This document shows positions 26,190 through 45,870 of a stretch of 64,000 nucleotides of DNA, piece by piece. A model generated the notes under the pieces. That model had not been told where the DNA came from and did not search any database. It saw nothing but the letters and a program-made list of their open reading frames with translations. The stretch lies in assembly GCA_020543525.1 (NCBI GenBank), contig JAHYIO010000002.1, positions 1 through 64,000 on the forward strand, given 5' to 3'. The DNA comes from Coriolopsis trogii. Its lineage: Eukaryota; Basidiomycota; Agaricomycetes; Polyporales; Polyporaceae. A program made the translations under genes and the position numbers. Every line of letters starts with the position of its first letter. Position 1 is the first letter of the stretch.

Positions 26190-27877
26190 GGTTGCTTCTT
26201 CCCACCCAACGAGCTCCAATGGCTCGACAACAATGTCAACCACCCTGAAGTGCAGGAACGCCTCAACTCCAACAAACGCAACTGCATCAAACTGGCCTCC
26301 GACCTCCTCGTCAAGATGCTCAGGAGCAAGTTGACGGTACCAGGGCCAGGAGAGTCTGAGGAGCACTACACCCAACGTGTCAGCAACGGCCACAAATCAC
26401 GAGAGACGGAGGAGCAATTTATAAAGCGATGGGAGGATCTCAACAAGGTGCGCTACGTCTTACGCATGTCGCCTGTCATACTCACTCTCCTTCAGCATGT
26501 TCACCAGTAGCTTCAAAACTGGAGGACGAAGTGGCTTCAACAGGAAGAGCAAGAGGCGAAGGTGAAGATAATAGCCCCCACGATGCCTGCCAAGCCCATC
26601 GAGCCTAAGATGCGTGCATACACAGGTTTGGATATCTTCGAAACCACCGCAGAGGCATCTACTTTGACAAGCTTTCCTCGTGTGCCCGATTTGAAAGGTA
26701 CAATGCGGCCTGGGATTGGTGCATGGAGCGCAGCTTGTAAGCGGGCGTGGGATGCACTGCCCGGTACCCGTCATGAGGCATTCAATGAAATAGCCAGAGT
26801 GCGAACATACGAACGCGCTCTGCAAGCTGCTGATGAGAGCCTTCCCGACGGATCCAACATAATATATGGGTGCGCCAATTCATAACCGATTGCGTCCCAC
26901 GATGAGTCCTCACGGTCCTCAGTTTGGGCGTAGTAATGGCAGGGTGGGTCGAGGGCTTCATCAAGATTGTCAGCTCGACGATGAACTGGGGAGGATTGCT
27001 GGTCACAGGCGGGAACAATGATAAGAGTGACACAACATACAATTGGTGAGTCTTCATAAGGCCTATGATTTGCACAAGCTGATGTGCAGAAGCAAATCGT
27101 TTGGAGTCAACCGCTATGGCAAAACATTTCTTGACGCACTGTGAAAATCGATCGGATGGAGCCACAAAGAGTTTGAAATCGTCTTCCTCAAGTGGCTAGA
27201 ACAGTGTCGACGATGTGCGTGGCATGATGCTCTCCTTGCGGACACTGCACTGACTTGGCAAAGCTTCCCCTGATGACATGACCCCCGGGGCAGAAGAGCT
27301 GAGGGACGCAGTCCTAGGTGAGCAAAATCTGAGCCCTGGAGGTACGGTATGCTTACTGAGATTCTCAGCCCACCGCACGCACAACGAAGCGACCGAGCAC
27401 AACCCTTGGGAGCTGACAACCTCCGCAACTCCAGACCCAAGAAGTGCGCAGGCGCTTGCACCCCCTCCCAACACCGTCGTACCCAACATTGCCAGTGGCG
27501 TGGACGGCGCCATGTCCTCGCAAGCAGGGACAGCGCCCTTGTCCGAACAGAACGATCTGCTTGGAGGACCTTGGTGGGTGGCACCCAAAGACCTAGCAGG
27601 CGCTAGTACGGCCGACGAGCAGCAGTACAATCTCATGGATGCTATGAGCTTGGATCATTCCATGCCCATCCAAGGCGGAGGCGAGTCTGCCGGTGCCTCA
27701 GCAGGAATAACTCGGGAGCAATTTCTGCTGAGTGACACTAGGGCCGGGTTGATCGCCGAAGAATGTATCGACAAGCATTTCGTCAGGCCCTTCAGGAGCC
27801 TCCTCACCAGCAAAGAACTGGGCGGAAAAAAACATGGGGCCCCCGGGAAAGGGCTGCTGGGCCGGCTGAGGAAATGA
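26190..27877 (+). pseudogene. Uncharacterised accessory gene A, 5'-truncated paralogue of gene D
   Basis: Not recognised. Immediately after the Ku80 remnant, and in another frame, a new protein begins without a nearby Met: CFFPPNELQWLDNNVNHPEV, then NKRNCIKLASDLLVKMLRS. After an intron come SAACKRAWDALPGTRHEAFN and EIARVRTYERALQAADE, then GWVEGFIKIVSSTMNWGGLL, GKTFLDALGKSIGWSHKEF and a Pro/Ser-rich tail ending LGRLRK at 27,877. The helical N-terminal pattern and the W-x-LP...EIAR-T block also occur in gene D (32,797-35,943), so the two look homologous. Loss of the 5' end exactly where Ku80 loses its 3' end suggests a recombination junction near 26,180. Confidence 0.5.
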
Positions 27878-28486
27878 GTGGCCCAACTGGTGCTCGGCCA
27901 CAAAGAGGGAGGCGTCGGCGTCTTGGTGGACCTCGCTCGGTTCAGGAGATTCGTCGCCGAACCGGTGCTCAGCGACAAAGGAGCCGTTGACGTCCTGGTG
28001 AGCCTCGCCCGGTTCGGGAGATTTGTCGCCGAACCGTTGCTCAGCGACAAAGGAGCCGTCGACGTCCTGGTGAGCCTCGCCTGGTTCGGGAGATTCGTCG
28101 CCGAACCGGTGCTCGGCGACGAAGAGGGAGGCGTCGGCGTCCTGGTGAGCCTCACCCGGTTCAAGAGATTCGTGGCCGAACCGGTGCTCGGCGACGAGAA
28201 GAGAGGCGTTACCGGCTACATTGTCCTCTTCGGGTGGAGGAAACGAGATGTCTGTCTCCAGCCCAACCGCTGGGAGGTCAGGCGTTTCGTCGCCAAAAAA
28301 ACCCTCGGCTCGGAGGAGCGAGGCACTGGCCTCTTCCCTTTGTGGAGCCGGCTCGGGGGATGCATCGGGAAAGAAGTCGTTGGCAATAAGTGGGCTTACT
28401 TGACTTGCGTCTGTGTGCGTCGCCCCTTGCTCGCTGGTATCCGTGCTGGTTGGGATAGGCGACCCGGAAACCTGAACCTCCTGCAT
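27698..28486 (-). CDS. Repeat-rich acidic protein (gene B), up to 262 aa
   Basis: Not recognised. The minus frame encodes an acidic protein built from about five 24-25-aa repeats of the form FVAEHRFGDESPEPGEAHQD. Degenerate relatives lie outside the array (LLRAEGFFGDETPDLP, FFPDASPEPAP, FFAGEEAPEGP, FFGDQPGPS). Spread of the FF-x-x-E-x-P motif beyond the DNA-level repeat supports this strand and frame as the coding one, because divergence has kept the protein pattern. The plus strand is also open through the same DNA (27,878-28,507), and the C-terminal part overlaps gene A antisense. The start is provisional; an upstream exon is possible. Confidence 0.45.
   Translation of the reverse strand: MQEVQVSGSPIPTSTDTSEQGATHTDASQVSPLIANDFFPDASPEPAPQREEASASLLRAEGFFGDETPDLPAVGLETDISFPPPEEDNVAGNASLLVAEHRFGHESLEPGEAHQDADASLFVAEHRFGDESPEPGEAHQDVDGSFVAEQRFGDKSPEPGEAHQDVNGSFVAEHRFGDESPEPSEVHQDADASLFVAEHQLGHSFPQPAQQPFPGGPMFFSAQFFAGEEAPEGPDEMLVDTFFGDQPGPSVTQQKLLPSYSC
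27884..28212. repeat. 72-75-bp minisatellite, about 4.5 copies
   Basis: Units begin near CCGAACCGGTGCTC and alternate between 72 and 75 bp by one codon. Period is a multiple of three, keeping frames open on both strands. Units differ by scattered substitutions. Confidence 0.85.
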
Positions 28487-29131
28487 ACACTGTCGAGCGT
28501 CAGGTAGTCAGTTAGTGGTTCGGCGTGATGCCAAGCTTATAGCTCACTGCAGCAACCATCTTTTCTCGCCAATTCATGATAGGGGACATTGGAAAGGTAC
28601 GGGCAATTGACGGGCGGTGTCCGGGCGGCGAGCGACCCGGTTGTGTAGCGCCAGTGAGCAGGTCGCTGAACCAGGGCTCCATCCGAGGAGTTGAGAGACG
28701 GCTGCCCGTCGTAAATTCACCGGGAAAATTGACGGCGTTATTTTCACTCTGGGGGTTGATTGTCGCTCCTTCACGGGACGGTGATGGCTGGAAATTGATG
28801 AACATGAATATTTGCGGCTCGGCTGAGAGAATAGCGCTTGGGAAACAAACCTGGGACATGTTTGGCGACGGGATGCTGCTGGTCGGTCAATGGGCTGAAC
28901 GAGCCTGAGTTTTTGTCCTCTGAAGAACCATGAAATTTGAACAATGGACGTGGAAGCCTTGGTCCGTGTGTGAACTTTATTGTCTGGGCCGGGCCGAGGA
29001 TACGAAATGGGCGTCTATTGGCATTATAGAGGTCTTCGGACGGAGACAACTGTCGCAACACAACGACTCCCATTTTTTCCCTCTCTTCTGCAGTGCTCTG
29101 CTTTCAATCTGCTCTCTGTCTTGCTGCACTC
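28487..29131. other. Intergenic between genes B and C
   Basis: Likely a divergent promoter region for gene B (minus) and gene C (plus). CT-rich sequence (TTCCCTCTCTTCTGC) lies shortly before the gene C start. No other feature seen. Confidence 0.4.
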
Positions 29132-31588
29132 ATGGCCTCCCGCAATGCTGCTCTCAACGAACTCGCTTTCCAGTGCCTTTGCGCCTGGAGGGAGCGTCCG
29201 GCATCCACCGACCCGGACCGGGCACAATGGGCTGTGCAATTTTCCAAATTGCTCAAATTGCTCCTAACCGCCCTTAAGGGCATCACGGCCCCAACCCTCG
29301 TGCCTCCTTTTGTCAACGCGGTCATCCATCAGAACAACGCCGCCTTTCAACAGCCTGGACGCCAAATAGATATCGACGCGATCAATCTGGAGACGGCCCC
29401 GGTCCGCATCGGGAAATGGTTCATTTTGGACCAGGAGTATCGCGAGCCGCCAACCGTCCAGGGCTGGTGGACACGGCCAGGCAAGTAGAACATTTATGTT
29501 ATCTTTGAGGCATGGCCAGAAAGAATGGGCGAGCCTTTTGTGGGTTTTGCTGATTGCATGGCCGCTTTTCAGCCGTGGCGCAACCTGCTCTCGCCGCTGC
29601 CTCGTCCTCCACGGCTCGGCCACCGGATGTCGGTTCGGCCTCCGTCTCCACCATGACGGCCGGGCCGAGTTTTCCCCATCCGCAAGCCGGTTCAAAGTGG
29701 CTGGACATTCTGAATGTCACACCGCCCAGCCGACGGGTCTCATCCTCCCAGGAGCTGTCCGACAAGTCAGTTCGGTTCGCGGCGACGCCCGATCCGAACG
29801 CACCACCCCCTCCTCCCCACCAACCCACTCCTACCGCATCTCAAGGCGGCCCGTCCACCACCGACGTGACAAAATTGATCTTAAAACTCCCGGGTCCAGT
29901 GGAACCTTTCCCCACTGTGGACATGCCGTCAACGCCGACTCCCAGCCGACGGCGACGTGCGAGCTCCCGGGCGGCCGCGGGCCGGGCCGATGAAAGTGAT
30001 GCCCCGACGTCAGCATCACAGGCCCCGGCTCCCGACCCGGCCAGCGCATCGGCATCCACTGGGATGAGGACGAGGTCACGAGCAGCGTCCTCCGCGGGCG
30101 CAGCACGCTCCTCGTCCTCGACAATGAGCAAGAAAGGCAGATCCCAGCGGTCCGCGACAGGAGCCGCCCACCGGTACCAGGAGGTCGACCTCCAGAAGCC
30201 GCTAGTAAACGAGTGGCGTCGTCCGGTGAGTGTTTTTTTCCTTTAGCTCTATCTTTTAACTGAGGTCTTTCCAGCCAATCAAATGTTCTCGTTGCGAACG
30301 CCGCAACCTCCTCTGCCTCGTCAACCTCGCCAACCGCTCAACATGCAACTGCTGCGCCCAGGGGAAGACGTCTTGTTCTTTCGCGCCGCAGCTACGCAAG
30401 GGGTCGAAAAAGTCAACATACTGACTGTATCGCTGGTTCAAGGACAAGTCCCTCCAACACCAGCATCCGAAGGAATACTCTGCGGATAGCGAGTTCTCAA
30501 CAGCCCCTGTCCCTGAGTGGTGGGAGAAGAGGTTTTGGAAGCTGTACGAGACAAACGCCAACGTTCCCGGGAGAGAGGTGGGCGAGCCGAAACTGCCCTC
30601 CACGAACACCTCGAGCAAAAAGTGGAAGAAATCCGGCTCGGTCTCGAGCGCGGTGAGCCAGGAGAGCCCATCCGTATGTGTTTTTTTTGGGTTCCATTTC
30701 CCGTTGTTAACCAGTTCATAGTCGTCCAAGATAGGCCCCGGCCCGGCCAAGCGTGCTCGTCCGACCCGGGAGATCATGGCGGTCGAGCCCGACGACCGTA
30801 AGTTTTTGTCCGGTCCGCTGTTTTTTTTGTTTTGTTCACTCTTATTGCCCGCAGGTGAATGGGACGACATCCCGGCCGTCGAGGATATGCACCCCCCTCC
30901 CCAGTCGCGCACAAGACGCACCAAGGCAGCCGCGACCTCCGTCAATGTCGGGAAGGGCTCGTCGTCTGCCGTCGCTGGCCCGTCAACGGCCCACGAGGAC
31001 GTTGAGGGTGAGGCTGCCGGGTCGGACGTCGATACCGAGCCGGACAATGTGTGGCGCCGCATCATGCGGCTGGAGGACGTGTCGACCTCGCTGCTCACCC
31101 AGGTCCTTCAACTCAAGGACAGGGTTAAGGCGCTGGAGGCCGAGAAAGTCGCCATGGAGACGCGGATTGTGGAGGAGCAGAAGCGTCAGTCGAGCGCCAT
31201 GGACGTGCTCATGGCACGTATTCTGGACCTGGAGGAGGGCCTCCCCACAACCTCTGCCGCTGCCAGCAGGCGCGCCCCCAGATCCTCCTTGCTGCATCCG
31301 TCCACTCCCGTCATGGCTTATGTCCCCTCCGACCCCTCGTCATCCCCTAGCCCGCAATCCAGGAAGGCGCGCCGCCACGCGAAGAAGGACAAGGGGAAAC
31401 AGCGGGCCCGTGCTTCCCAGAGCCTGTCCCCGGAGCCAGAGGAGGGGGTGGACAAGGAGTACGACATGACGGGGGTGCCTGAACCCCAGCCGGACTCCGG
31501 CCCGGATGACGAGGAGCTGATGCAAGTCGATCGCGACGAGGACAGGCAAGGCGAAGAGGCGACAACTGCCCAATATGATCGTAAGTGA
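29132..31588 (+). CDS. Cysteine-cluster and coiled-coil protein (gene C)
   Basis: Starts MASRNAALNELAFQC at 29,132. The first exon appears to splice with a GC-AG intron (AG|GCAAGT at about 29,480, acceptor near 29,571) into AQPALAAASSSTARP. A Ser/Thr/Pro-rich basic segment, including RSRRRRASSRAAAG-type runs, reaches an intron at about 30,222. Next is KCSRCERRNLLCLV...STCNCCAQGKTSCSF, six or more Cys spaced like fungal Zn-cluster or CxxC DNA-binding modules. After two more introns come the coiled coil (RIMRLEDVSTSLLTQVLQLK...ILDLEEG), basic and acidic tails, and QYD at a donor site. A TGA near 30,421 interrupts the frame after the Cys cluster, so it may be damaged. A downstream exon around 31,850-32,100 (PWQFIHYPMEPYAVQRFHRH) may belong to it. 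A DNA-binding cargo protein is my inference. Confidence 0.5.
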
Positions 31589-32796
31589 ATGTTTTCTTGT
31601 TATACTCACGAACTACCTGACCAAAGAGTCTTAGAATGATTGCCATCCTTGTGCGACGTAGGGGTTCGGATAAGTTCGGGTGAGCACTCGGACCGGTTAT
31701 TTCTTGGATCTTCTTGTTGCATGCTTCCCGGCTCCGTATTTTGTTTGTATCGTGTAATATATTGCAATGTTTTTTGTATGTTCATGCGAGTATAAGACCC
31801 ACCTACACTCTGAGTGCAAATGAACACGCCTTCGGTTCACAGAAACCGAGCCGAAGGGCGAGCCGCAGATTGACCTCACCCCCTCTCAATACTCAAAACC
31901 ATGGCAATTCATTCACTATCCCATGGAACCGTATGCGGTCCAGCGTTTCCACAGGCACTCCTTGCATTCCGGCTTCTTCTCCGTGGCTATGCGGCTCTGT
32001 GGCCTCTCGTCGCGGCCCGGCTCGGCTATCGGGTCGGTATGTCCATAAACCATCTCCCAGGCTTCGAAAGTCTTGTGTAATGTCGCGAACACTTTGCAAT
32101 GAGAAACGTCGACATCTAGTGGGACTGCATGTTTGATATTGGGCATGTATGAAGGTTACCATTGATATTCAGTGCTTGATGCCTGAAGTTTGTGGTAGGC
32201 ATGTCAAGGTCACGGAGCCCTTGGCAAGATTCATAAACAACTTGAAGATGATGGTGCTGTAGACACAGTCAAATTTGCCAACAAGGTCGGCAGAGCTCTC
32301 TGGCATCTGAACTGAGGATGGGTAGTCCTGCGAACAGGCAGCGGAAGTCCCGCCTTCCGATGCTGAAATTCGAGTTGATTTTGGCACTCCGGATCCAAAC
32401 GGTGACGTTTCCAGCCTCTGCGTCAATGACACTCAATGGCCGGCTCCCCTCTCCACCGCTATGCACTCCTGTCGTCTCGCCGGTCCGAGCCGGTACCGGA
32501 GAGCATCGGGATAACGATTGTGCCACCACCGCAATCACTCGACGTTACAGTACAACAGCAATAGCTGAAGCAAATGTTTTGTTTGCAGATGCATCCGCCA
32601 TGTATATCAGAATAGCAGCCGAAGATCGGGCCAAGCCAGTCGGGCCGGCCTTCGGGTCATGTACTCAAAGACATTCCGACAGGTGTCCGTGGAAGACACA
32701 ATGAGAGTACCACATTTGTGAGGGATAATGCATGGAAATACACGGACAGATACCACGTTGGACGAAGATGCAGCCACTATCCCTTCGGCACACGTT
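31589..32796. other. Region between genes C and D with a possible last exon of gene C
   Basis: Around 31,840-32,040 a plus-strand frame reads FTETEPKGEPQIDL then PWQFIHYPMEPYAVQRFHRH and looks protein-like. It could be a final exon of gene C ending near 32,102. The remainder (32,110-32,790) shows no coding signal that I trust. Confidence 0.35.
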
Positions 32797-35700
32797 CTAC
32801 ACCCTCTTGGCCTTACGGGCCGACCGACGCACAGGCTGATGGCTCTCCCCCTCAGATGCTCCCCCACGCCTTGCCTTCTTCTTGCCTGTCTTACCCTTCG
32901 CTGCGCCACCAGCATCCTCAGTGATGTCATTGCCGGTAGGTGTCTCGTCGCTCGGGGCATCAATTGCGGGGTCGGGTACCTGCGCGCCTACATTTGATGA
33001 TCCGGGGAAGGATGATGGTCCAGGTCCATCCATGGCAGGAGCCAATGAGGATGTCGCCGGGATCGTCGGATCCCCATCCGAGCCGCCGGCTGGTCGAGGA
33101 TCCTCAGGCACGGCCGTGATCCGCGCCGGCTGTTTACCTTTAGACTTTCCCGATGGTCCCCCTGATCAATGATGTCAGCGGGGAAAGTGCATCTGCCGTT
33201 ATCATGGAAAACTCACTTTTAGGTCTGTTAGCCCGTTGTCCACCGGTGGACGACAGATCCGCGTCGTCGTCACCCATAACCGCATTCTCGACCTCACCAG
33301 CCGATATCCCTTCGGACTCCACGTCATCAACAGACATGGGGTTTGGCAAAGAGGCACCTGCGTTATCACCTGTGGCGTTGGCCGTTGCACCCTGCCGCCT
33401 GGCCGACCTGGGCAGGACACCGGGACCAAAGTCTTCGCCATCCGGGCCGCGGTACACGGCCATCTTGCAAGCCGGAGCGAGGATGCTTTGGAGGTGAGTC
33501 CAGTCCGCTTGGCTGCGGCATATATATTCGGGTCCGTCGTAGGCTACTGGTTCCGACTCGTCGTTCTCGGTGTCGTTGACCCGGAACAAGTCGCGGATGG
33601 ATAGCGCCACAGCGAGGAGCCATCGCTGGAGCTCACCGGCCGACGATCGTGACGTTGGGACCCGGTCTCTCAGATGTTCCATCAGCTCGGTCCAGCTGCT
33701 CAGGCTCTGGTGAAACCGTGCCGGGACCGCATTGACGTCGTCCTGCCAGCTGACCCACCCGAGCATCCGGTCCTCTGGATTGGAAATGACAGTCGCACAC
33801 CTGGTAAGCTGAGCATTACAGGTCAGGTTCAACGTGTCGCGCTGGATGCCACTCCGATTTGCTCACCATATGCCGCCAAGACTCGAGCACTTGGTGGAAC
33901 TCGGGGAGGTTGCCCAGGCTGTAGAGGTAAGCGCATGGGTCCTCCATGTCGACGGCCCACATGGTCCCCTCGCATCGGGCTTGCGCAACCAACTCCGGGT
34001 CGGGAGGGAAAGGAACAGTCGAAGCAAGGGACGGGTCTGCGTTCGCGGCACCATGTTTAGCGGTCCTAGCTCGAGCTGCGCGAGCAGGAAGGCGACGAGT
34101 TGGACCCGGGGCAGTCGACGGTGCTGCAGCCGAACCACCCAGCATCTCGTCCGGGGTGTCGTCGCCGCTTGAGCCCCGGGTGGAGAAATGCCCCTCATCG
34201 GCCGAGCTATCGTCCACAACGTCCTTGGCTGGTCGCTTGCCCGAGCGACTCCGCCCACCCACCGCACCCTTGCCTTTCTTTCTTTTGGACCCGGCATGAG
34301 GCGCCTGCGGCAGTTCATCAGCAGCACCCGCAGCACCATCGGCAGGCACCCCCGATGGGTCGGCGCCATCTGCAGCACCCTTTGCGGTAACTGCAGCAGC
34401 GGCGGCAGCGGCTGCGGCCTTTGCAGCTTTCGGGGCTAAGCTCTTCATAGCACCTGCCTTCTTTGCGGCCCGGGATCCTTGAGGCCCTTGAGGTGGAGGT
34501 TGAGCGTCCTGGCCATACGTCGCTTCGATAAGCTCCGCTGATGAACCAACGGCGTAGTGAGTGAACCGAAACTTTCGTGCCTCCTCCCCAGGGAGCTTCT
34601 GACAAGCCTGAATCTCCGTCCACAACCTCGCAGACGTACGCGGCATATGCGGGGGGTCAGTAAATGTTTCCCCCAGGTCTAAAGGCACGAGACCCGGTTC
34701 AAAGAACTTGTTCGGATCCTTGCCGATGAGTTTCCACGGGACCTGGGGGTCGCTGCCCCGAGGGTAACCTTTGGCCAAACCTAGCATGCAAATCCAATTC
34801 AATGCGTGGAGCGACTGGGGGAAGATATGGCAGGCTCACCATACAAGGCCTTAAAGTACGCGAGGAGGTATTTCTTCTTGATCTCCGACCCGACGATGGG
34901 CCGGCCCGTGACCGGGTCGGTGTCGGGCAGGATAGGCCAGCCATCCTCGGTGTAGGGGATCTTTCCGATGGGCGGCGGGTCGGGTTGATCGTCCCCTTCG
35001 GCAGGGATGTCTTCGTACAAAAGTCTCATGTATTGGACGCACTTATCAGCCGGACCCTCAAACCAGCCGGGATACTTTGCACCGAAGGGCGGCAGATCGT
35101 TCTCCTTCAGAATCTGGCTGGTGTCTGATCTATGGGTCGGCTCGGGTGAGCTGCAATCGTAGGGAACGTAAAGTTTGCACATACTGCATGGTATGCGGGA
35201 TCCCCTTGTTGTCGTTGTATGTCAGGACAACGGTGCCAAAACACTTCGTCTGGTCCCACAGCATTTTGAGGAAGCCGTGCACCCAATGTGGTAGTCACTT
35301 CTTGATTAACCTGAGCAACATAAAATATGAGCTTGCCACGATTCTGCCCACGCGTCGAGCACAACTTACAGGAGCCGAACATTGTCCGGCGGCCCTTGGA
35401 GAGTCCAAGTACGAGCAATGTCCTCGTACCTGGTTTGCTCGGCTGGTGGTAACGCCCGCCACAGCGCGCTTCTTGCCTGGTTGAAGGCCGCCAATTCCTT
35501 CCCCCGTTTATGACCCGCATCGAGGACGACGGCCGGGTCTCTCCCGGCTTCCTCTTTGGCGAGAATCGCGTCGCGTTCGGCAACGATAGCCTCGTACTCA
35601 AGCTCTTTGTGCACCTCCCACCCGCTCCAGGTAATCTTCAGCTCCTTCGGCACCCGGTTGGCCCCAGTGTTCAGGTTCAGTTGGAACCAGGAGTTGATTT

Positions 35701-35943
35701 TCTTAAGGATCGGGTCGGTCGACGGCCCGGCCCGACGCATGCAAGAGCACTTACCGACTGAATGAAGCTACGCGCATATGGATCGTTGGCATCGCGCTCC
35801 CGCCCCTCAAGAATTTTTGTGGTCAGGGCGTTTTTCACCAAGGTCTTCTCGTTCTTAGACATGGTGAGCCACGACTCAAGGTGCTCCTCGAGATACTTCT
35901 GTTCCTTCTCGGTGAGCCCTAGGTCTTCAGCCACGGCGGCCAT
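32797..35943 (-). CDS. Uncharacterised large accessory protein (gene D)
   Basis: Not recognised. Starts MAAVAEDLGLTEKEQKYLEE at 35,943 (minus) with a helical N-terminal block, then an intron (GTAAGTGC). Exon 2 carries ERDAILAKEEAGRD, ARSALWRALPPAEQTRYEDI and ARTW. Later exons give a segment with NDLPPFGAKYPGWFEGPADK, PYTEDGWPILPDTDPVTGRP, and PRGSDPQVPWKLIGKDPNKF. A very Ala/Lys/Gly-rich basic and acidic low-complexity region follows (about 33,990-34,480), then LGNLPEFHQVLESWRHM, QSLSSWTELMEHLRDRVP, and a basic C-terminus RSARKAKRV ending at 32,797. The W-x-LPP...Y-x-x-IAR-W block faintly recalls an HMG box. It is divergent from the TET/JBP gene, 304 bp away, and paralogous to gene A. Long open exons suggest it is functional. 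Confidence 0.55.
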
Positions 35944-36247
35944 TGTGGTGGATTGTGCAGCAAAAAGGCGTATAAACAAAACAAAGCAATGATAATACCT
36001 GGCCCGGTCGTAGCCCTCGTCCTGATACTAAGTCATCCGGGCGGTGGGGCAGCTCGCGGGTCGTTGCCCGGATGAGGCTTTCGGGTCGGATGGGACCGGT
36101 CCGGCCATCGATACGGGCGGCAGAACAATGTGGCGATCCTCTCCTCCCGCCTCGCGCCAAGTAGGCACGCTGATTGCGCATCAAACCCTCCACACGACAC
36201 CTTATCACGCCACAGACTTGACGCGTGACCCTTGACCCTGCTCCGCC
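35944..36247. promoter_or_regulatory. Divergent promoter region, gene D / TET-JBP
   Basis: 304 bp separate the two start codons. An inverted repeat CATCCGGGC ... GCCCGGATG (36,033-36,072) and repeated GGTCGG/CCGG motifs lie in it. Shared control of the two genes is inference. Confidence 0.45.
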
Positions 36248-37547
36248 ATGGATGCATATCCCGCTGACTCTGGCGTGTTTCACGACCGTGTCTCTGCTCA
36301 TCTCAGAGACCTGGTACTTGCGCAAATCTGCGTAGTATCCAGTCCAACAGTTACCACAGGCATTGGCATATCAGACTGGACCGATGGACTGGAGGCCGAT
36401 CTCCAACGGGCGGCAGATGTGATTTCATCCGCGTGGAGCTACCCGGGTAGATATTTGATCGAGACTGCAGACGGCTCACAATCGCTGACCATCTCCCCGA
36501 TAGTTCCAGTGCCCTGGAATGCTCAAGATCTTGCAGACCAACTCTCCAAGCGCCCAAGCGGCTTGTGCATGGCCCTTGAGGACGCTTTGCTAGACACGTT
36601 CCCGCCCATGTGTGGTATTGAAGCTGTGCTTCAGAATAACTTTCCGCTCTTACGGCGGCCGGCCATACTTGTCGACCCGCAGAATCGCATCCTGCTTTGG
36701 TACCTGCCAGGGGTGTTAAGCTCTGAGCGTCAGGTGAAGCGAGCTGATTTGCAATAGCGCTGATGACAAATTAATCTTGAGTTCCAGGACGCCATGCTGC
36801 ACGCTACAGATGCGATCAAGGCTCAGTTTACTATTGGCCCGCCCACACACGATCCCGCGGTTAAGTGGCGGTCGGCTCCTACCTTTTACGGCCCGGGTCA
36901 CATATGGCAGTCCGGCCAGTGGCTCGGCAGTCCAGTCCAGTATCCGTGCGGGCACCAGGTGAGCCGCAATGAATAATTGACCGGACGACCATTCAAACGC
37001 GTGAATACTGCTGCAGGGCAAAGCCACCAAGCCAGGGCCATCTAAACAGCTTAATACGCCTGCCGGAGCTGTATGGTGCGACCGTATGAAGGAATCAGGT
37101 GCGCTGTGCAGCGCTCTGCTGTTTGTGACTCATCCGGCCCTGTACCGCGCGGCCCGGGTCACGATGGCCCGAGCCGCAGACGCAGCATCAACCGTGGTAG
37201 GAGAACATCACAGGCTGTGGCCTTCGGTATGGCACAGTACCCAAGTAATCATAAACCGTGAGACTCCCTTTCATCGAGACACCTCTGGCAAAGACACATG
37301 GTACGAGCTCCTCATGTCACTCGGAACGTGTTCCAAGGCAGCACTGGTCCTCCGGAACATCGGAATACAAGTCGGATACCTTCCGGGAACGGCGGTGTTG
37401 ATGTCCAGCCGGCTTATCCACCATGGGGTAGCCAAAGTTGAGCCGGACCGTATATGCTACACTTGGTACATGTCCGCTTCCTTACATAACAATTTCTCTA
37501 GCGAGGATGTGCCTTGGGTTACGCGGGACGAGCTATCCGGACCATAG
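36248..37547 (+). CDS. TET/JBP-family 2-oxoglutarate/Fe(II) dioxygenase
   Basis: Three exons (36,248-36,733; 36,788-36,958; 37,017-37,547) join in phase 0 to give 395 aa, all with GT-AG introns. The catalytic double-stranded beta-helix is in the C-terminal half. The iron ligands H305 and D307 lie in TPFHRDTSG and the distal His (H354 or H355) in RLIHHGVAK. The likely 2-oxoglutarate-binding R364 lies in DRICYTWYM. Fungal relatives of TET and trypanosome JBP oxidise the methyl group of 5-methylcytosine or thymine in DNA. That this one acts on 5-methylcytosine is inference from the family. The N-terminal 200 residues (MDAYPADSGVFHDRVSAHLR onward) are of unknown function. All visible catalytic residues are kept. 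The stop is 40 bp before the KDZ transposase start, and gene D diverges upstream. Confidence 0.85.
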
Positions 37548-37587
37548 TATACTCAACGCCGCGCTTGAATCGTCCTCTGTACTTGTA

Positions 37588-40500
37588 ATGCCTTTGCATA
37601 ACTCTATCATGACGCATCGTCCTCGTGCTACACCACATCCCGCATATCAGACTCTGACTATCGCCACCAAGACAACGAAAAGAGGCACCCAGCGTGTATG
37701 GACAGCCAGTGCAGCGGGAGCACCATCGGGGGCCCAGCGACGGGTGAGGAAGCCCAGGGAGCCCAAAGATGTATTGCCTACTTCGAACAACCCCGACTTT
37801 CTGGAGATGTCGGTTGGGGAATTCACCTTTGTAGGCCCACAGGTACATTGGTGTAATTGGGGATCCAAATGGGAGGTTGACGGGCCGGACCGCTGGAATA
37901 GAAGCCCAATGAGTACCAGCTTCTATGGCTGAGAGAATTCCAAGCCACGTACCTCCGCGAGCTGTACGAGAGGGAGGCCCAGCCTGAGGAAGACGACGTC
38001 ATGTGCGGGTGTGGGGGACCAGCACTTTGGCGTTGCCTCGACTGCTCTAGCCAACAGCCACAGTGTAGGAGGTGCTGCAAAGAGGCCCACTTTCGACATC
38101 CCTATCATCGCGTTGAGCAGTGGACTGGTACTCACTACCAAAAGTCAAGTCTTCGGTCCACGGGCATCCGTATCTACCTCGGTCACGGAGGAGAAGTCTG
38201 TCCGAGTCTCAGATGGACGGATGACACGAGCTGGAGACAACCGCACTCAACCGCACCCAGTGAACCTCCCGAGGTATGCATCCGTAATACTTGGGAGTGG
38301 CTCAAGCTCATCACTCTGTTAGCACGACGACAATCGCGCATCGTCACCCATCTCTGAACCGGGGCATGAATATCACTCCGAACCAGGGACGCCACCACCA
38401 CCCTCATCTCCATTGCCCGCCTCCTCTACGCCATCTAGTCCAGTGCTATCGTTAAGGTCTACTGCGAGAAACACACCTGTCAGAAGTTTGCCGAGACGTC
38501 TCCCCAGGCGCCCATCTGCCGGCCCACGGGTCGGGCCATCGGCCGGCCTGAGCATCACCCCCATGAAACGTTCCCAGCCAGAGGACTCCGACTCTGAGTC
38601 AGAAGACGACACCAACGTTTGTATGACAAGACAACGTCTGGAAGGGCCAGATGTAGAGGTTCCGGAGGAGAATATCCAGGACATACTGGAGGCCGAAGAA
38701 GACAATCCGGACGATGCCTACGGTGTGAAGTCGGACGACGCGGCTCACATGCCCGGCTCAGGTGGGGCACCGCCTGATGGGTTGAACCGAGTTTTCTCGG
38801 ACATGGAAGGCGACTACACCAAGGTAATGGTAGTTGTGGATACCTCAGGGGTGCACGAACTTCCAGTGGTATCCTGTGCGTGCCACGACTCCCCTCCGCT
38901 CGACATTCAGCTGTTACGGCTCGGCCTGTATCCGGCCACCACCGCAAGGCCCAAGACACTTTTCATGTTTCGGGTCCTGGACGACGTGCTGCTAACAACA
39001 GAAGAGTGCAAGACCTCGATACAAAACTACTACAACAAGCTGCGACATGTCACCGACGATCTCTTCCCACATTCCGTCCCGGTACGGCTGCCTTCCGGCT
39101 GACACATGCACCGACCCCACTTCTAACGTCTCAATTTCAGAATCGATACAGAGAGTTGCTACGTGTTTCACGACAGTGGAGAAACTTGAAGTCATGGAAA
39201 ACGAGTGGGGTTGGATATGAGGATCTGCTCCAGCCAGGGCGAGGGCAGTTCATCTTCCGGTGCCCGGCTTGTCCATGGCCGAACCGGAACATGAGGGACG
39301 GATGGAAGACCGACAAATGTTGGTAAGTTCGTCAGTGCTTATTCCGATGTTCATACTATACATTGGAACATACGGTGCAGGTGGAAGCATGCCGGCTCAT
39401 GCATGCTCGATGGCAACTTCGCTGCACAACATCAGCTTCAGAAGTATCCACAACTAGATGTGCGGTTCGCCGACGGGCATGGCTGCGCGGTTGCAGTTTC
39501 TCCCTTCAAGGAGCACCTGAAAACTGCTTTCCGAGTTCGACAGGTCAGTTGAGCCGGCCCGAAATCAGTCGGACCAATAGATGCTGATCGAGCCTGGCAG
39601 AAACTGGAATGCCATGAGCATCGCGCAGTCCTCGGATCGTCCACGGAGCGTGCCAAGCTGGCTGCAACTGGAATAGGGGCGGCAGTTTGCAGTCGTCATG
39701 GATTCTTCTATCCCCACTCATGTGTGGATTTTGACGCAGGCGAAGGGTCAGTGTGTTGACGTCAAGCATGACAGCCCGCCACTGACAGAGCACACAGTCA
39801 ACGACATATGGACTATGTCCTCAGCGAGGCCATGTCGTTCCTGGCCGGGCTGATGTTCCTCCTTGTGTTCTACGACATATGGTGCTTCTACTCCGTTCAT
39901 CTGCTCACCCGAATGGAGAAGAGCCCTGGCATATCAATTCCGGAGGGCCTCGTCGTTTCGGGTGGTATTGATCAGTTTCACGTCCATGGTCATAAGCGGG
40001 AATGCTACCCGCGGTACTCACCTCACTTTGTACCCGGAGCCGGAGTCCAAACCGGGGACATCATCGAAACACTCTGGGCTCCTCTGAACAAAATCAGCGA
40101 TAGCACACGTGGCATGTCGGCTGCGCACCATCAAGAGTTCAATGACGATTTCATGAACGATTCCAATTGGAACAAGCTCACCCGCCTAAGTAAGCATGCG
40201 CCCCCCACCCGAAAAATGTTCCGGCTAACGGTCTGAAAGCCGCATCTCTCGTGAAGAAGTGGCGAAATGCCGCAGAGGAGACACCGGGTGCCCAAGAGGG
40301 ATTTCACTCCATCACGGCCACATCTGACCCAAATGACGTGCGTGTATGGTTGCGGATGGCGAAGGAAGCGGCCGAGCAACGAAGACAGAACATCAAAGTC
40401 ATGGACATATACGACATGTCAGAAGACAGCCGTAAGTACTCTCCCCCTCTATTGCACGACGTGTCTTCACTGAGTCTTGGAGACAGTGCCCACAAGAAAA

Positions 40501-41909
40501 GAGATCGCTCTGGAGCTGACGAAAGAGGAGACCAAACACCCCTCTAAGCTGCGTGGAGCGGTTGCCTGGTTACAGACAGGCCTCAAGATTGAGGAGAAAC
40601 GGTACGAACAGTGATCTCATGGAGGTTATATAGCTGTATCTAACGAGAACTTGCACTGCAGTCTCGAAATAGCAGCCACCACCCGAAAACTTCGGTCTAC
40701 CTCGCCCACCAAGGACCATCTGGCTCTCGAGCAGATGCGCGTGAGGCTGCTAAGGGACATAGAGAAGTTCCATAAGGAGGCCAGCCAGTTTCTGCCAGCT
40801 GCAGCCCTCTCAACGGCATTATTCCTTCCGCCATCCACGAAATCACCGGGCGCTGGCTGGGATACGCTCAAGCCATCCGAGCCGGGGTCCGGCTCGGCCG
40901 GTGCTGAATCGGTCGACAATCATAGCGATGACGAGGACGAAGATCCACTCCCACAATCCAACCTGGAGTCCCATGCTGCTTCCAGCGCTGAGAACCAGCC
41001 GAGAACAGTGGGCGAATCTTCGTCTGCCACCACTGCACCTAATGCCACATCCACCCCTCGAAAGTCGACCGGTCCGGTACAGCCGTCGGAACGGATCACT
41101 ATCGGCCTGCCCTCGAATCTCGGACCCGCGTTGTGCGCTATGCATGGGCTACAAGACCTCGTTGTCAAAGAGCGGCGCCTTCGCGTGGGGCAGATGAACG
41201 ACGCCCTGCACGCAGTTCGCGTGGGTGTCGCCTACAAGTCTTTCCTCTACCGATCGTCTGTCCGACGGGCCACTTCGTACCGCGCACGCCTCCGAAGTTT
41301 TGACGAGGTGCATAACTCCAATCAAGACACGTTGGCACATGCCCGTCTGTATATGTGTGCTCGAACCTCCCTCATGAGTCTCTATGACGACAGCATTCCG
41401 GCGGATGCTAAGCTGAAGGAGGAGATGCTGGCTAAATATTGGGTCCTGGAGAAATCAGACCTCAAGGCCAACACAACCCTAATCGAACACGACGTCCGCG
41501 GTGTCTCGCACAAGCACCTCCCCTGGTTTTGGTCTCTTGACGTCAACATGGAAACAAAGGGCAGCGCCTGGATGGCAGAATATGAGTAGCCATCGTCTCT
41601 CTAGCATCCCGCAGCTCTGACCCGGGCCGGCTGACCACAGTGTACCGAGTTCTCTGGCTGAGAGCCCATGCAAGAAAGACGCAATGGGAGGAGGAGGTAG
41701 ACATTGTGAGTGAAGAGTTTTTCCGGACGGAGACCTCCTTCCAAAAAAATCGGGACGAGTGGCTGCAGCGCAAAGATTCATCGCTCGGCCGCGGTTATCG
41801 TGCCTGGGCATGCCGGCAGGCTGCTCTTTGGGATTCCCTGGCAATTCATGCCTCCAGAGAGTTTTCCGAGGCACAGCGTATTTGGAAAGCCCCCACTGTA
41901 TCCTTATAG
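37588..41909 (+). CDS. KDZ (Kyakuja-Dileera-Zisupton) transposase
   Basis: Start at 37,588 (MPLHNSIMTHRPRA; an in-frame Met also lies at 37,609). Exon 1 ends at 37,842 and exon 2 begins at 37,902 with KPNEYQLLWLREFQATYLRE. The N-terminal Cys/His module associated with KDZ transposases follows (MCGCGGPALWRCLDCSSQ...RRCCKEAHF...HPYHRVEQW, then SLRSTGIRIYLGHGGEVCPS). Further on are an acidic linker, DTSGVHELPVVSCACHDSP, QLLRLGLYPATTARPKTLF, and RCPACPWPNRNMRDGW. Catalytic-region motifs are MLDGNFAAQHQLQKYPQLDV (near 39,400), VFYDIWCFYSVHLLTRME, FHVHGHKRECYPRYSP and GDIIETLWAPLNKISD (near 40,060). The C-terminal helical region ends in VYRVLWLRAHARKTQWEEEV and WKAPTVSL at 41,909. Frames join across about ten introns without an internal stop, so the gene looks intact. 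The acid residues in LDGNF, YDIWC and IETLW are plausible DDE members. Confidence 0.85.
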
Positions 41910-42071
41910 TTCACTTTAGTATGTATGTTCTGAGTTACTCGGTTGAATCGCGGCTCGGATGGCGGCCCGGGCCACGGCCGGCGTTTACTTCGTGGGCCCG
42001 GCCCGCTGGTGACAAAGGCTACAGCTTCCGAAAGCTTATCCGCCCCATCTTGCCCTCCTACAATCATATCA

Positions 42072-42907
42072 ATGCCTCCACTCGCCGCCGATATTATGCT
42101 CTCGGAGTGCAGAAGGTTCGAACTCGAATGGATCGCCAACAAGATCGCTACCGCCTTCAAGGCCTATCCCGAACACCCATCGCAGATAACCAAACAGCGA
42201 TGGGGAACAGGCCTCGCAATAGAATGCGTAGGTCCCAAGATTCACCACTACTCAAGCGCGCCGTCACTAATTGTTTACTTTTACCAGTGGGACACCATAG
42301 CGGCCTACGGAATACACTGTACCGACAAAGCACTATCGCCTGCAGTGCCCACCGGGGCGACCCAGTCGGCTGATCCGGTGTTGCCAGCAATCATCACAGA
42401 GCTCCTACGTCATGCCGCATGGTGAGGACTCTCCATGTCAATCGCAATGGATGACCTGAACCTGGCGGCTTTCAAACAACTGGCTGAAGACGTCCCCGAG
42501 ATGAATGTTGAAATTCCTATGGTCCGAAGGTGGTGGGAGTGGCCCGAAGACGCCCAGAATGTTCAAATTGTGGAGGGTCATAGCTGGTGGCTGTCTCCTC
42601 CCGAATTTGTGGTGAGTTCTGATTTCTTGTTGGGGTACAGTTCGAGCTCATAGCCTTGTATACTCAGCCGCAGCCATTGCAAGGATATGCCTGGGATGTT
42701 GTTGATATAAACGTCCACCTCGATGCCATCACCCAAGCAACCGAGTCCATATTTGACAATTACGACACCCTTGTTCACGACCTCGCGATCATTACCGGCG
42801 AGGGCGCAGATGACAGCGAGGCCTCCCGGCTCGGAGACAGGATGGAGGCACAACAGGCGGAAGGGCACATGGAGGGCGCTGACGAGAACATCCAAACCCT
42901 AAACTAG
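42072..42907 (+). CDS. Small KDZ-adjacent protein (gene G)
   Basis: Not recognised. Starts MPPLAADIMLSECRRFELEW at 42,072, continues IANKIATAFKAYPEHPSQIT and YFYQWDTIAAYGIHCTDKAL, and reaches a donor at about 42,423 (ATG|GTGAGG). It resumes in VPEMNVEIPMVRRWWEWPED and VQIVEGHSWWLSPPEFV. After a second intron it ends in DAITQATESIFDNYDTLVHD and a Glu/Asp-rich tail at 42,907. It is on the transposase strand, 160 bp downstream, and lies between the transposase gene and the palindrome array. It is Trp-rich with no Cys cluster. A role in transposition is possible but unproven. Confidence 0.5.
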
Positions 42908-43089
42908 CACAGTGCCCATGTAACCGCATAGTACAACCATGGAAGTGACCACCGGAGTTGCCCAGCCGCACCAGGATGTGTCCGGCATACAGCCAATTCT
43001 GTCAAACCCACTCTGCCGCACATACCGCGCCCTCTAGGGGGGTCAGCCCACAGGGTCAGTCCGAGACAGGGCGCCAGCGGTCCGTCACA

Positions 43090-44135
43090 TCCGGGTCGGC
43101 TGGTGTACCCGCGGTTCGGTTGGTGCGGTGGGCAGGCAGCCACGCGGAACGCAGTGCACTGCTTTATGCCGAGCCGCGCGGAATGCAGTGCACTGCTTTA
43201 TGCCACGCTGCGCGGCGCACTGACACTGGAAGCGGCACCGACCGCGCGGCTCGGAAACCAAAGTCTTTGTACAGCCCGCGCGGGACACCCTCCCAGCGTC
43301 ATCCCACGCCTGTGCGGTACTTTGCCCAGCACCTTGCCAGCTCCACGCGGATCACTGGATCACCGCGGTCCAAAACGTATCTTCCACCAGGAGCATAGCA
43401 TGCCTGACCTACAAGTCGCTCCAGCAGCGTCGTCCGTGAAAGACTGCCAAGTCGGTGTCCATGGCGGTGGGGTAGATCCTCGTTCAGGAAGCTAAATTTG
43501 GATCACATGTCAATTCCATTGCTAGCGAGTATGGCCCAGACTTCCCTTTTAACCTCGCTCTTGCCATTGTGAGCGCATGACAATGTGAATCATGATGTGC
43601 ACTTGGCACGGTAAACGGCGAGGATAATTTGAACACCATATGGACCGGAAACATAGAACAGATGGCCGCGCGGCTCAAGCCATCCGAGCGGTTGTGCTCT
43701 CCGCGCGGCTCGGTCAACGACTTGGCGCCAGCGGTCCGCGCGGTTCGGGCGCACGAGAGGTCCAGAGTTTCCGCGCGGTACGAAGTCATACCATTGAAGC
43801 ACAGTTTGTTAGAGGCGCAATAAATGATGATTGCACAAGGGCCGCCCTGGGATACAAGGCGGACCATACCAGAACCTTATAGGAGGAGTGTGGGGTCGCA
43901 TCCGGGTCGGCTGGTGCACCCGCGGTTCGGTTGGTGCAGTGGGCAGGCAGCCGCGCGGAACGCCTTGCACTGCTTTATACCGAGCCGCGCGGTGCACCAA
44001 TCCCAGAGATGACACCGACCGCGCGGCTTGGACAACCAAAGTCAGGGTGAAGCCCGCGCAGAACACCATATCGGGCTTGCCGTCGGGCCGCGCGGTACTC
44101 ATCGCACCACATGGCCAACTCCGCGCAGGTCACCG
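43090..44135. repeat. Segmental duplication within the palindrome array
   Basis: The stretch from about 43,090 to 43,365 is repeated, diverged, at about 43,900-44,135. Both start TCCGGGTCGGCTGGTG and share the same order of inter-palindrome sequences (for example GTGGGCAGGCAG and TGCACTGCTTTAT). The first copy has one extra unit. Confidence 0.8.
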
Positions 44136-44745
44136 GACCACCATCTCCAATGCCGCTCGGTTCACCATCCTGACCATAGCTGTATATTATTTCCCACTCA
44201 ACACCCGCTTCCACAGGTCCCAAACGCTATGCCAGGACCCATATGCTCCGACGAACACAGGCCGTCCGTCCGAGCCGCCAAAGTAGCCGGCTGGCGAACC
44301 GCAACCCGACCCCTTACCCCCATCCCCCACCGCCCGCACTGCCTTGCACAGGCCCCATATGCCCTCTAAACCACACCTCCCAGCATGGGAGTAGCCTCCA
44401 TAACTCGCCCAAGGCGTCCGGACCCATCCACCTGCCTCCCGGCCCACAAGCCGCCACCCGGTCCCCCTGCCCGGACCGCTCCAACTCACCGTTTCACCCC
44501 TTGTGTTGCTTTAATATGCCCGGTAAACGTTGCATTGTCACTCACAGTGCCTACAGGGACTATGCAGGCAAATACAGACAGTCTACGACCACAGAACGCG
44601 TCCAGATCGCTCATAACACGGTCCCCCTACCCCGGACCACCACCCGATCACTCACCCATACCCGGTCCGCGCGGCTCACCATTATGCCTCCCGGCCAACC
44701 ACCCGTGCGGAACACCCCCCAGGTTCCCACGACCCGACCGCGCGG
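43107..44745. repeat. Phased array of CCGCGCGG palindromes, 33-35-bp period
   Basis: Thirteen exact CCGCGCGG sites start at 43,174, 43,242, 43,276, 43,666, 43,701, 43,736, 43,771, 43,951, 43,985, 44,019, 44,088, 44,667 and 44,738. One-mismatch sites fill the gaps at 43,140, 43,208, 43,343, 44,054, 44,121 and 44,703, and two-mismatch sites at 43,107, 43,310 and 43,918. Within each of the four clusters successive sites are 33-36 bp apart, while the 25-28 bp between them varies. The octamer is its own reverse complement and contains three CpG. Outside this block I noticed it only once, at about 37,149 in the dioxygenase coding sequence. Confidence 0.9.
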
Positions 44746-44814
44746 CACCGCGTGCCACGCCCACACAGTGCATTTGCACCGCCGAGGGACACAGTATACA
44801 GAGTATTTCTATTG

Positions 44815-45870
44815 AATCCAGTGCGTTCCTGCACTGTGATGCCATCCTTCTCATATTCATGAACATATGTACGAAGCTCTGCAGGTGAATCAGTGTGGCG
44901 AGCATCCCGGTCTGGAACGTGGGGAGGCTTGTTCATAAAGAGGCGCTGAGTAGCAATCTGATACTCCTCTAGAAGTGTTACCTGGCCAAGTAACGCTTCA
45001 TTGTTCATCTCCATGGCGAGATATGAGGGAAGAGACCTACGGGTATCCCATCCCAAACAAAATTAACATTGCCAGCGCCCTTGCTTGCATGCACATCGTC
45101 TGGTGTGGCATTGTCATACTGAGTAGAGATATCAAATATGCCTATGTGCTGTCACGAATGTCAGGTCTATATGGACGCAAATACATGCTAAACATCTCAC
45201 TGGTTTTGTGCGATTTCTGTAAGCGAGGTAAGCAGCAATGGTACGTCCGTCTTTATCACAGTACACGCGAGATGTTGCCGCCACTGGTTTTTGAACAAGC
45301 TTTTCTTCGCAGTAGCGCTTGAGTTCCTCCAGCCGCGATGTCTTGGCCTGCCTCACGAGTTCCTCTGTTGAGAGGGCAACGTGGAACTGAGGGGCTTCAC
45401 TCCAGAAGTGCTTCATTTTCTTCGCCGTTGCCTTGCGCCATGCGGTTTCTTGGGCTGTAGGACTCCTAACTCCATGGGCCTGACCGGGGACCTTAAAATC
45501 CGCTGCGCGGGGGGGAGGTATTTTGAGGTTCTTGTTCAGGACAGGCTAGAGCACTTGTTTCAGCACAAATATATGCAGTATATTATACAACATGCCTTTT
45601 TGGCCATCTGTTGAACAGAAGCCAATATTTCAGTTGTGGGGACATTGACCAGACTGTCAGACAACAACCCGCCTTTGCGTGCTTCTTCTTCAAACATTTG
45701 AGCATGACGGTGAGGTTGAGCAACTGTTGTGTGTGGGGTTGGCGCATGGCAAGCGTGCGATATTCGCAAAGGAAGCACGTGAATGGCGCGCCCTGCCCTA
45801 AATCATCCATGCATTCCACCCCAGCGATACAAACATGCCTGCAATGTCCAAAAGCACAAGATACAAGGCG
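44815..45870 (-). pseudogene. Unidentified protein remnant (gene H)
   Basis: Not recognised. Minus-strand protein-like segments lie in order: GVECMDDLGQGAPFTCFLCE (a Cys pair, possibly zinc-binding), then in another frame MFEEEARKGGLLSDSLVNVP and TTEILASVQQMAKKAC. After a gap come MKHFWSEAPQFHVALSTEEL, RLEELKRYCEEKLVQKP, RVYCDKDGRTIAAYLAYRN, IGIFDISTQYDNATPDDVHA and EMNNEALLGQVTLLEEYQIA, ending near 44,815 with ITVQERTGFNRN. Frame changes could be introns or damage; at least one change (near 45,715) has no obvious intron. No start was identified. Confidence 0.35.

Follow-up and report, generated by a model that had tools for sequence, protein, structure and literature searches.

What is a regularly stepped array of a CpG-rich motif doing beside a KDZ transposase gene? 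The window, by which we mean the whole 64,000-nt stretch analysed (the first 64 kb of contig C2 in a genome of 38.8 Mb, the one genome from which all array evidence comes), had been said in a preliminary description to hold 13 exact copies of a palindrome, CCGCGCGG, at steps of 33-36 bp. Counting revealed 14 exact copies, 13 falling within 43,174-44,745 and one elsewhere in the window, whereas 100 whole-window shuffles gave a mean of 1.6 and a largest value of 5. With up to one mismatch allowed, 21 sites lie within 43,107-44,745, forming 13 adjacent pairs spaced 33-36 bp apart; dinucleotide-preserving shuffles of this interval (n = 2000) yielded a mean of 2.36 sites (maximum 9) and at most one such pair, and uniform placement of 21 sites (10,000 trials) yielded a mean of 0.69 pairs (maximum 5). 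The reported copies and spacing therefore exceed both shuffling and uniform placement, and the array is far more regular than shuffled sequence (13 pairs as compared to a maximum of 1). The individual steps were also described correctly: 34, 34, 34 and 34 over 43,140-43,276, and 35, 35 and 35 between the exact sites of 43,666-43,771. Coding is rejected as the origin of the period, as it had been in the preliminary description, since the array mixes steps of 33, 34, 35 and 36.

By contrast, the suggestion that the sites occupy one helical face or phase of B-DNA was not borne out. A 34-bp step corresponds to 3.24 turns at 10.5 bp, and coherence of the site positions at 10.5 bp is absent (R 0.07 and 0.18), leading us to reject helical phasing on ordinary B-DNA. 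Coherence does appear at 11.4 bp, simply a third of the step length.

Table 1. Features of the window (positions count from its first letter; a dot marks a feature without strand).
Feature	Position	Strand	Details
Remnant of element	27741..44823	+	homology to C4:134000-161500 and C4:2004000-2013500 starts at 27,747/27,741
TET/JBP oxygenase domain frame	37005..37544	+	PF12851, E 7.9e-13
CxC2 cysteine cluster frame	38323..39099	+	PF18803, E 1.2e-21; treated as the KDZ gene's N-terminal portion
KDZ transposase domain	39400..40233	+	PF18758; stretches 39,400-39,744 and 39,772-40,233
A-type terminal region with CCGCGCGG array	43085..44823	-	tip at 44,823
Cluster 4	43140..43350	-	sites 43140, 43174, 43208, 43242, 43276, 43343; three with 1 mismatch
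Cluster 3	43666..43778	-	exact sites 43666, 43701, 43736, 43771; steps of 35
Cluster 2	43951..44160	-	sites 43951, 43985, 44019, 44054, 44088, 44121, 44153; three with 1 mismatch
Cluster 1	44667..44745	-	sites 44667, 44703 (1 mismatch), 44738; offsets 150, 114, 79 from tip
Putative TSD CGTTCCT	44824..44830	.	7 bp outside the tip; partner lost with the other end

To what does the array belong? A 201-bp query taken from the array end found 23 matches on seven contigs of the same genome, 20 of which fall into ten inverted pairs; the singles lie on C2, at C4:678,561 and at C4:1,413,158. The tips are of two kinds, A (CACTSGATTCAATAG-like) and B (CAGCCCATTCAGTAAG-like), beginning CACTSR.. and CAGCCC.. 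respectively over the 22 ends read and giving 5'-CA..TG-3' termini. A 7-bp TSD is exact in eight of the ten end pairs, agrees at 6 of 7 positions in the ninth and is absent from one; the partner of the end at C4:1,417,987 was recognised by its tip and TSD. These inverted pairs, shared tips and TSDs identify the array as the terminal part of a TSD-flanked DNA transposon. Several of the ends are the two ends of one copy and are thus not independent; the end analyses omit a partial locus (L027), the group counts omit L019 as a mirror duplicate of L020, and L024 was counted apart from the two groups. The pair pattern itself occurs at 198 places in the genome, those listed being on C2 and part of C4, and the reversed-motif control occurs at none. 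Since the arrays occupy both tips of TSD-flanked elements, plasmid-like replication iterons were rejected.

In the window, the array takes up ~1.7 kb at the right end of a truncated KDZ transposon, whose tip there, at 44,823, reads inward as CACTGGATTCAATAG. Its A-type region aligns with A ends elsewhere at 96-98% in two copies and 91% in a third, the similarity stopping at 44,823/44,824, and 933 bp of it can be aligned in inverted orientation to B ends in two other copies, with identities of 96.8 and 97.3%. A B tip was sought within the window and none was found; a stretch that spans ~3.6 kb in the complete copy and comprises the B end and its array is missing on the left. With one end gone, the window copy should not move by itself. 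The placement of the array beside a KDZ gene, as first described, was therefore right in that the array belongs to a KDZ element, but incomplete: the array is the tip of that element and is present at both ends of complete copies.

This two-ended layout was counted in the one copy that we read whole, C4:137,054-157,820 (20.8 kb). Exact sites number 20 in its left 1.8 kb and 29 in its right 3.0 kb, as compared to 1 in the 16 kb of interior, so in this copy a short motif is concentrated near both ends and rare inside, as in subterminal arrays. At either end the directional sites are grouped into several clusters, with 2-7 sites per cluster; steps within clusters are 33-36 bp, mostly 34, with one of 69, and clusters lie 180-546 bp apart. 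Smaller relatives of 4-6 kb retain sites at both ends, with 3 to 8 exact sites per end over the 1.65 kb read. Five of the seven inter-cluster distances in the 20.8-kb copy are near multiples of 34.2 bp, but 5.6% of jittered gap sets fit equally well, and a phase carried across the long gaps is not established.

The CpG-rich site had been described as a palindrome. Its conservation was upheld, but it is not a plain palindrome: the real site is longer and asymmetric. Of 106 distinct contexts read inward from the tip, some differing by single substitutions only, 102 show GNNCCGCGCGG. A G lies three bases before the palindrome at 45 of the 49 sites aligned inward in the 20.8-kb copy and, counted by distinct context in four sets of ends, at 45/48, 28/29, 23/23 and 6/6; a matching C on the palindrome's other side was sought in these four sets and found in none. 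Read outward, the window array accordingly has C at +3 in 11 of its 13 exact sites. The site, which contains three CpGs, is therefore directional, and arrays share one orientation relative to their own tips, a dense one-way arrangement of the VANC type.

The remnant in the window also contains recognisable protein domains. PF18758 scores over its cut-off at 39,772-40,233, and in the domain's other stretch, 39,400-39,744, one stop was read through (an intron or damage). When the TET frame is compared with the solved CcTet 7vpn, its HRD motif and an HG further along align. Ten further frames at 27-36 kb gave no clear family in Pfam, and an NCBIfam search of six frames gave no match. By TSD length, CA..TG tips, domains and TET gene, the element is Kyakuja-type, an assignment by features rather than phylogeny. 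TET+ Kyakuja DNA transposons of Agaricomycetes have been reported from Polyporales among five orders and share with our element 7-bp TSDs, CA..TG termini, a KDZ transposase and a TET/JBP gene (Kojima 2025, PMC12730594). Two Laccaria Kyakuja families were described there as lacking TIRs, a feature not seen here, where the ends match in inverted orientation over 933 bp at 97%. The terms "subterminal", "CpG" and "tandem repeat" are absent from the main text of that paper (PMC12730594), and in the literature searched we found no description of such an array; KDZ combined with subterminal gave 0 papers.

If the array were a private satellite, it should be missing beside other KDZ copies, as the preliminary description had pointed out. 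It is present: six of six family-1 KDZ copies have an array-bearing A end, and in all six a TET/JBP domain (PF12851) lies ~2.7 kb from KDZ, within the element. We counted at least 21 KDZ loci in the genome, eight with a TET domain nearby and 13 without. At C4:1,402,844, which has TET nearby, similarity is lost inside the KDZ domain and no array was found in the 6.2 kb read. A locus on C8 has TET, CxC2 and KDZ frames without stops, yet no array in 19 kb; A or B tips within two mismatches were likewise not found over C8:1016500-1035500 (L039, L040), and this is possibly a settled or domesticated copy. None of the six TET-less loci examined (of 13) carried an array at the one end read in each; these were five 6.5-kb downstream flanks and a nested copy for which the left boundary could be located, the nested copy and the C6 locus being one family, and true tips were located for two of the six only. 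CxC2 also occurs at two KDZ loci whose examined end is array-less, C6 and the nested C4:2143k copy, so that CxC2 alone does not predict the array.

Two observations on the TET-less loci can be added. The flank on C20 contains 11 one-mismatch sites in 6.5 kb where ~4 would be expected from the rest of the window; 0 of the 11 are spaced at 33-36 bp, and a degenerate array there was rejected. The nested TET-less element (C4:2141239 onward, L187) sits within a 34.5-kb array-bearing element and shares 99.96% identity with an element on C6 over 2.3 kb.

To ask which parts of the array persist, we compared four families of ends, of which family 2 is represented here by 4-6-kb copies only and families 3 and 4 by one locus each. 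Families 1, 2 and 3 have sites at common offsets from the tip (~79, 114, 150, 697, 764, 798, 832 and 866), and family 4 falls within about 5 bp of these, although two of its sites are badly decayed; because the family 4 tip was set by taking its outermost site as 79, that offset is not evidence there, and a later match to the family-3 end agreed with this placement to about one base. In cluster 2, family 1 is identical to families 2, 3 and 4 at 45/48, 42/48 and 37/48 site positions, as compared to 47/129, 54/130 and 54/130 spacer positions (36-42%). In the 11 x 9 comparison of ends between families 1 and 2, identity is 87.5% at sites and 36.7% at spacers, and is 21-52% once the site frame is shifted by 8-17 bases. 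The earlier picture of conserved site, conserved spacing and free spacers thus holds between families. The contrast appears mainly when family 1 is set against the others: in the outermost cluster, families 1 and 2 have most of their spacers in common too (24/24 site and 51/55 spacer positions), and between the close kin 3 and 4 sites are kept no better than spacers in cluster 1 (17/24 and 40/55) and hardly better in cluster 2 (41/48 and 102/130).

Together, these comparisons suggest that the array probably contributes to the movement of the element or to its escape from silencing. The reading that we favour, by somewhat more than an even judgement, is that it serves as a polar subterminal cis-acting binding region for the transposition complex of a TET/JBP-encoding Kyakuja-type KDZ transposon. 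An element protein (the CxC2-KDZ transposase or a partner) would bind the GNNCCGCGCGG sites cooperatively and in one orientation, and the proteins bound along the arrays would mark and pair both element ends before excision; at 34 bp (3.24 turns), neighbouring proteins would not lie on one face of B-DNA. Position, layout at both ends, polarity, site-over-spacer conservation between diverged families and retention in 4-6-kb relatives can be read directly from the copies. Numerous directional sites that lie at fixed distances from either tip and survive in shortened relatives are as expected of a transposition assembly region, and it is from this pattern that we infer protein binding, a candidate binder and a role in transposition. 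Counted against transposase binding are the CxC2-bearing loci with no array at the examined end, the C8 locus with TET, CxC2 and KDZ, and the comparison of families 3 and 4.

The nearest working analogues are the subterminal repeats of EnSpm/CACTA elements and the VANC21 motif arrays. The soybean CACTA/EnSpm TgmR* repeats are likewise short and lie close to the two termini of a large DNA transposon, and more methylation has been proposed there alongside loss of transposase binding (PMC4219821). That system differs in transposase superfamily, TSD and motif, and the arrays described here show a single polarity at each end, step regularly at ~34 bp and leave long intervals between clusters.

A second explanation, possible but in our judgement doubtful, is that the array counters silencing: its sites would bring the element's TET/JBP dioxygenase or a partner to the ends, where 5mC is oxidised, a VANC-like logic that may join transposase binding. 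VANC proteins belong to the VANDAL elements of Arabidopsis, and VANDAL21, which encodes an anti-silencing factor, resembles our element in its dense, same-orientation short motifs in non-coding DNA, in tandem arrays that vary between related elements (PMC5735166). VANDAL21 differs in that VANC targets vary between families (PMC5735166), whereas one site is common to four families here, and in that our element encodes a TET/JBP oxygenase. In favour of the anti-silencing explanation are the three CpGs in each site, a one-way orientation like that reported for VANC21 motifs, and TET together with an array-bearing end in 6/6 family-1 KDZ copies as compared to 0/6 TET-less loci examined (of 13; at the end read). 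On the other side, no VANC-like domain was seen in 20 frames scanned at E 0.1, a scan that short or split exons could escape. The C8 locus has TET and KDZ without an array, the link between TET and array spans very few independent lineages, and Agaricomycotina oxidation has been speculated not to be target-specific (Kojima 2025, PMC12730594).

The pattern of substitution bears on the same explanation. The 11 family-1 ends have 40 private substitutions, of which 28 are CpG transitions, CpG columns being 182 of 960, and the element ends therefore look methylated; this favours an anti-silencing role, although 17 of the 28 come from both ends of one old copy (C30), with 5 from the window copy. Outside its sites, the window copy differs at 8/128 CpG as compared to 4/760 non-CpG columns. 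Within family 2, site CpGs have changed about as often as other CpGs (47/486 and 61/594), and within family 1 about half as often (13/594 and 56/1408). Resident copies thus decay at CpG, with site conservation visible mainly between families.

Three CpGs per site and a TET gene in the same element make methylation control plausible, and we tentatively propose, as a scheme that is rather unlikely, that recognition of the ends is gated by methylation. Host CpG methylation would block the three-CpG sites; the element's TET/JBP protein would oxidise 5mC, and the transposase would then assemble. Fungal transposons carrying TET/JBP genes are known, and the function and targets of the enzymes are without experimental validation (Kojima 2025, PMC12730594). 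If gating were true, it would couple anti-silencing and transposition in one mobile element, a self-contained module in a fungus, and would explain why the TET gene is carried. Because the CpG-rich site is defined and its arrays have been counted at each end, it provides a concrete sequence for measuring binding, methylation and oxidation.

A host chromatin or CpG-binding factor that uses the array, leaving an insulated or hypomethylated element end, is improbable. A CpG-rich motif in elements with methylated-looking ends would suit such a factor, but an element-specific role better accounts for sites that are oriented by the tip at either end, lie at fixed distances from it and are almost confined to the element ends. 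A neutral tandem repeat or private satellite caught in the element by chance is largely refuted and very improbable: some adjacent units are near-identical tandem copies (43,138-43,215; C4:155,385-155,528), but array-bearing ends occur on seven contigs, and sites and offsets persist where spacers of family 1 are only 36-42% identical to those of families 2, 3 and 4.

Several minor observations accompany these results. A triple-pattern scan returned 14 stretches in viral and at least 118 in prokaryote contigs, which have no bearing on other fungi. A protein search with one gene near the start of the window returned 12 hits, the three named ones coming from Trametes and Ganoderma, so that the source is likely a polypore. 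The locus at C4:1411841-1417987 (L028) is a composite with inverted symmetry and three tips, two A and one B, and an ATCCCAG duplication surrounds its outer B and A tips. In the window, a 72-bp tandem repeat (4.5 copies, 27881-28209) lies inside a minus-strand frame at 27,701-28,507, and the stretch containing it is also present in two other element copies. Positions 1-26 are telomere-type AACCCT repeats, so the window apparently starts at a chromosome end.
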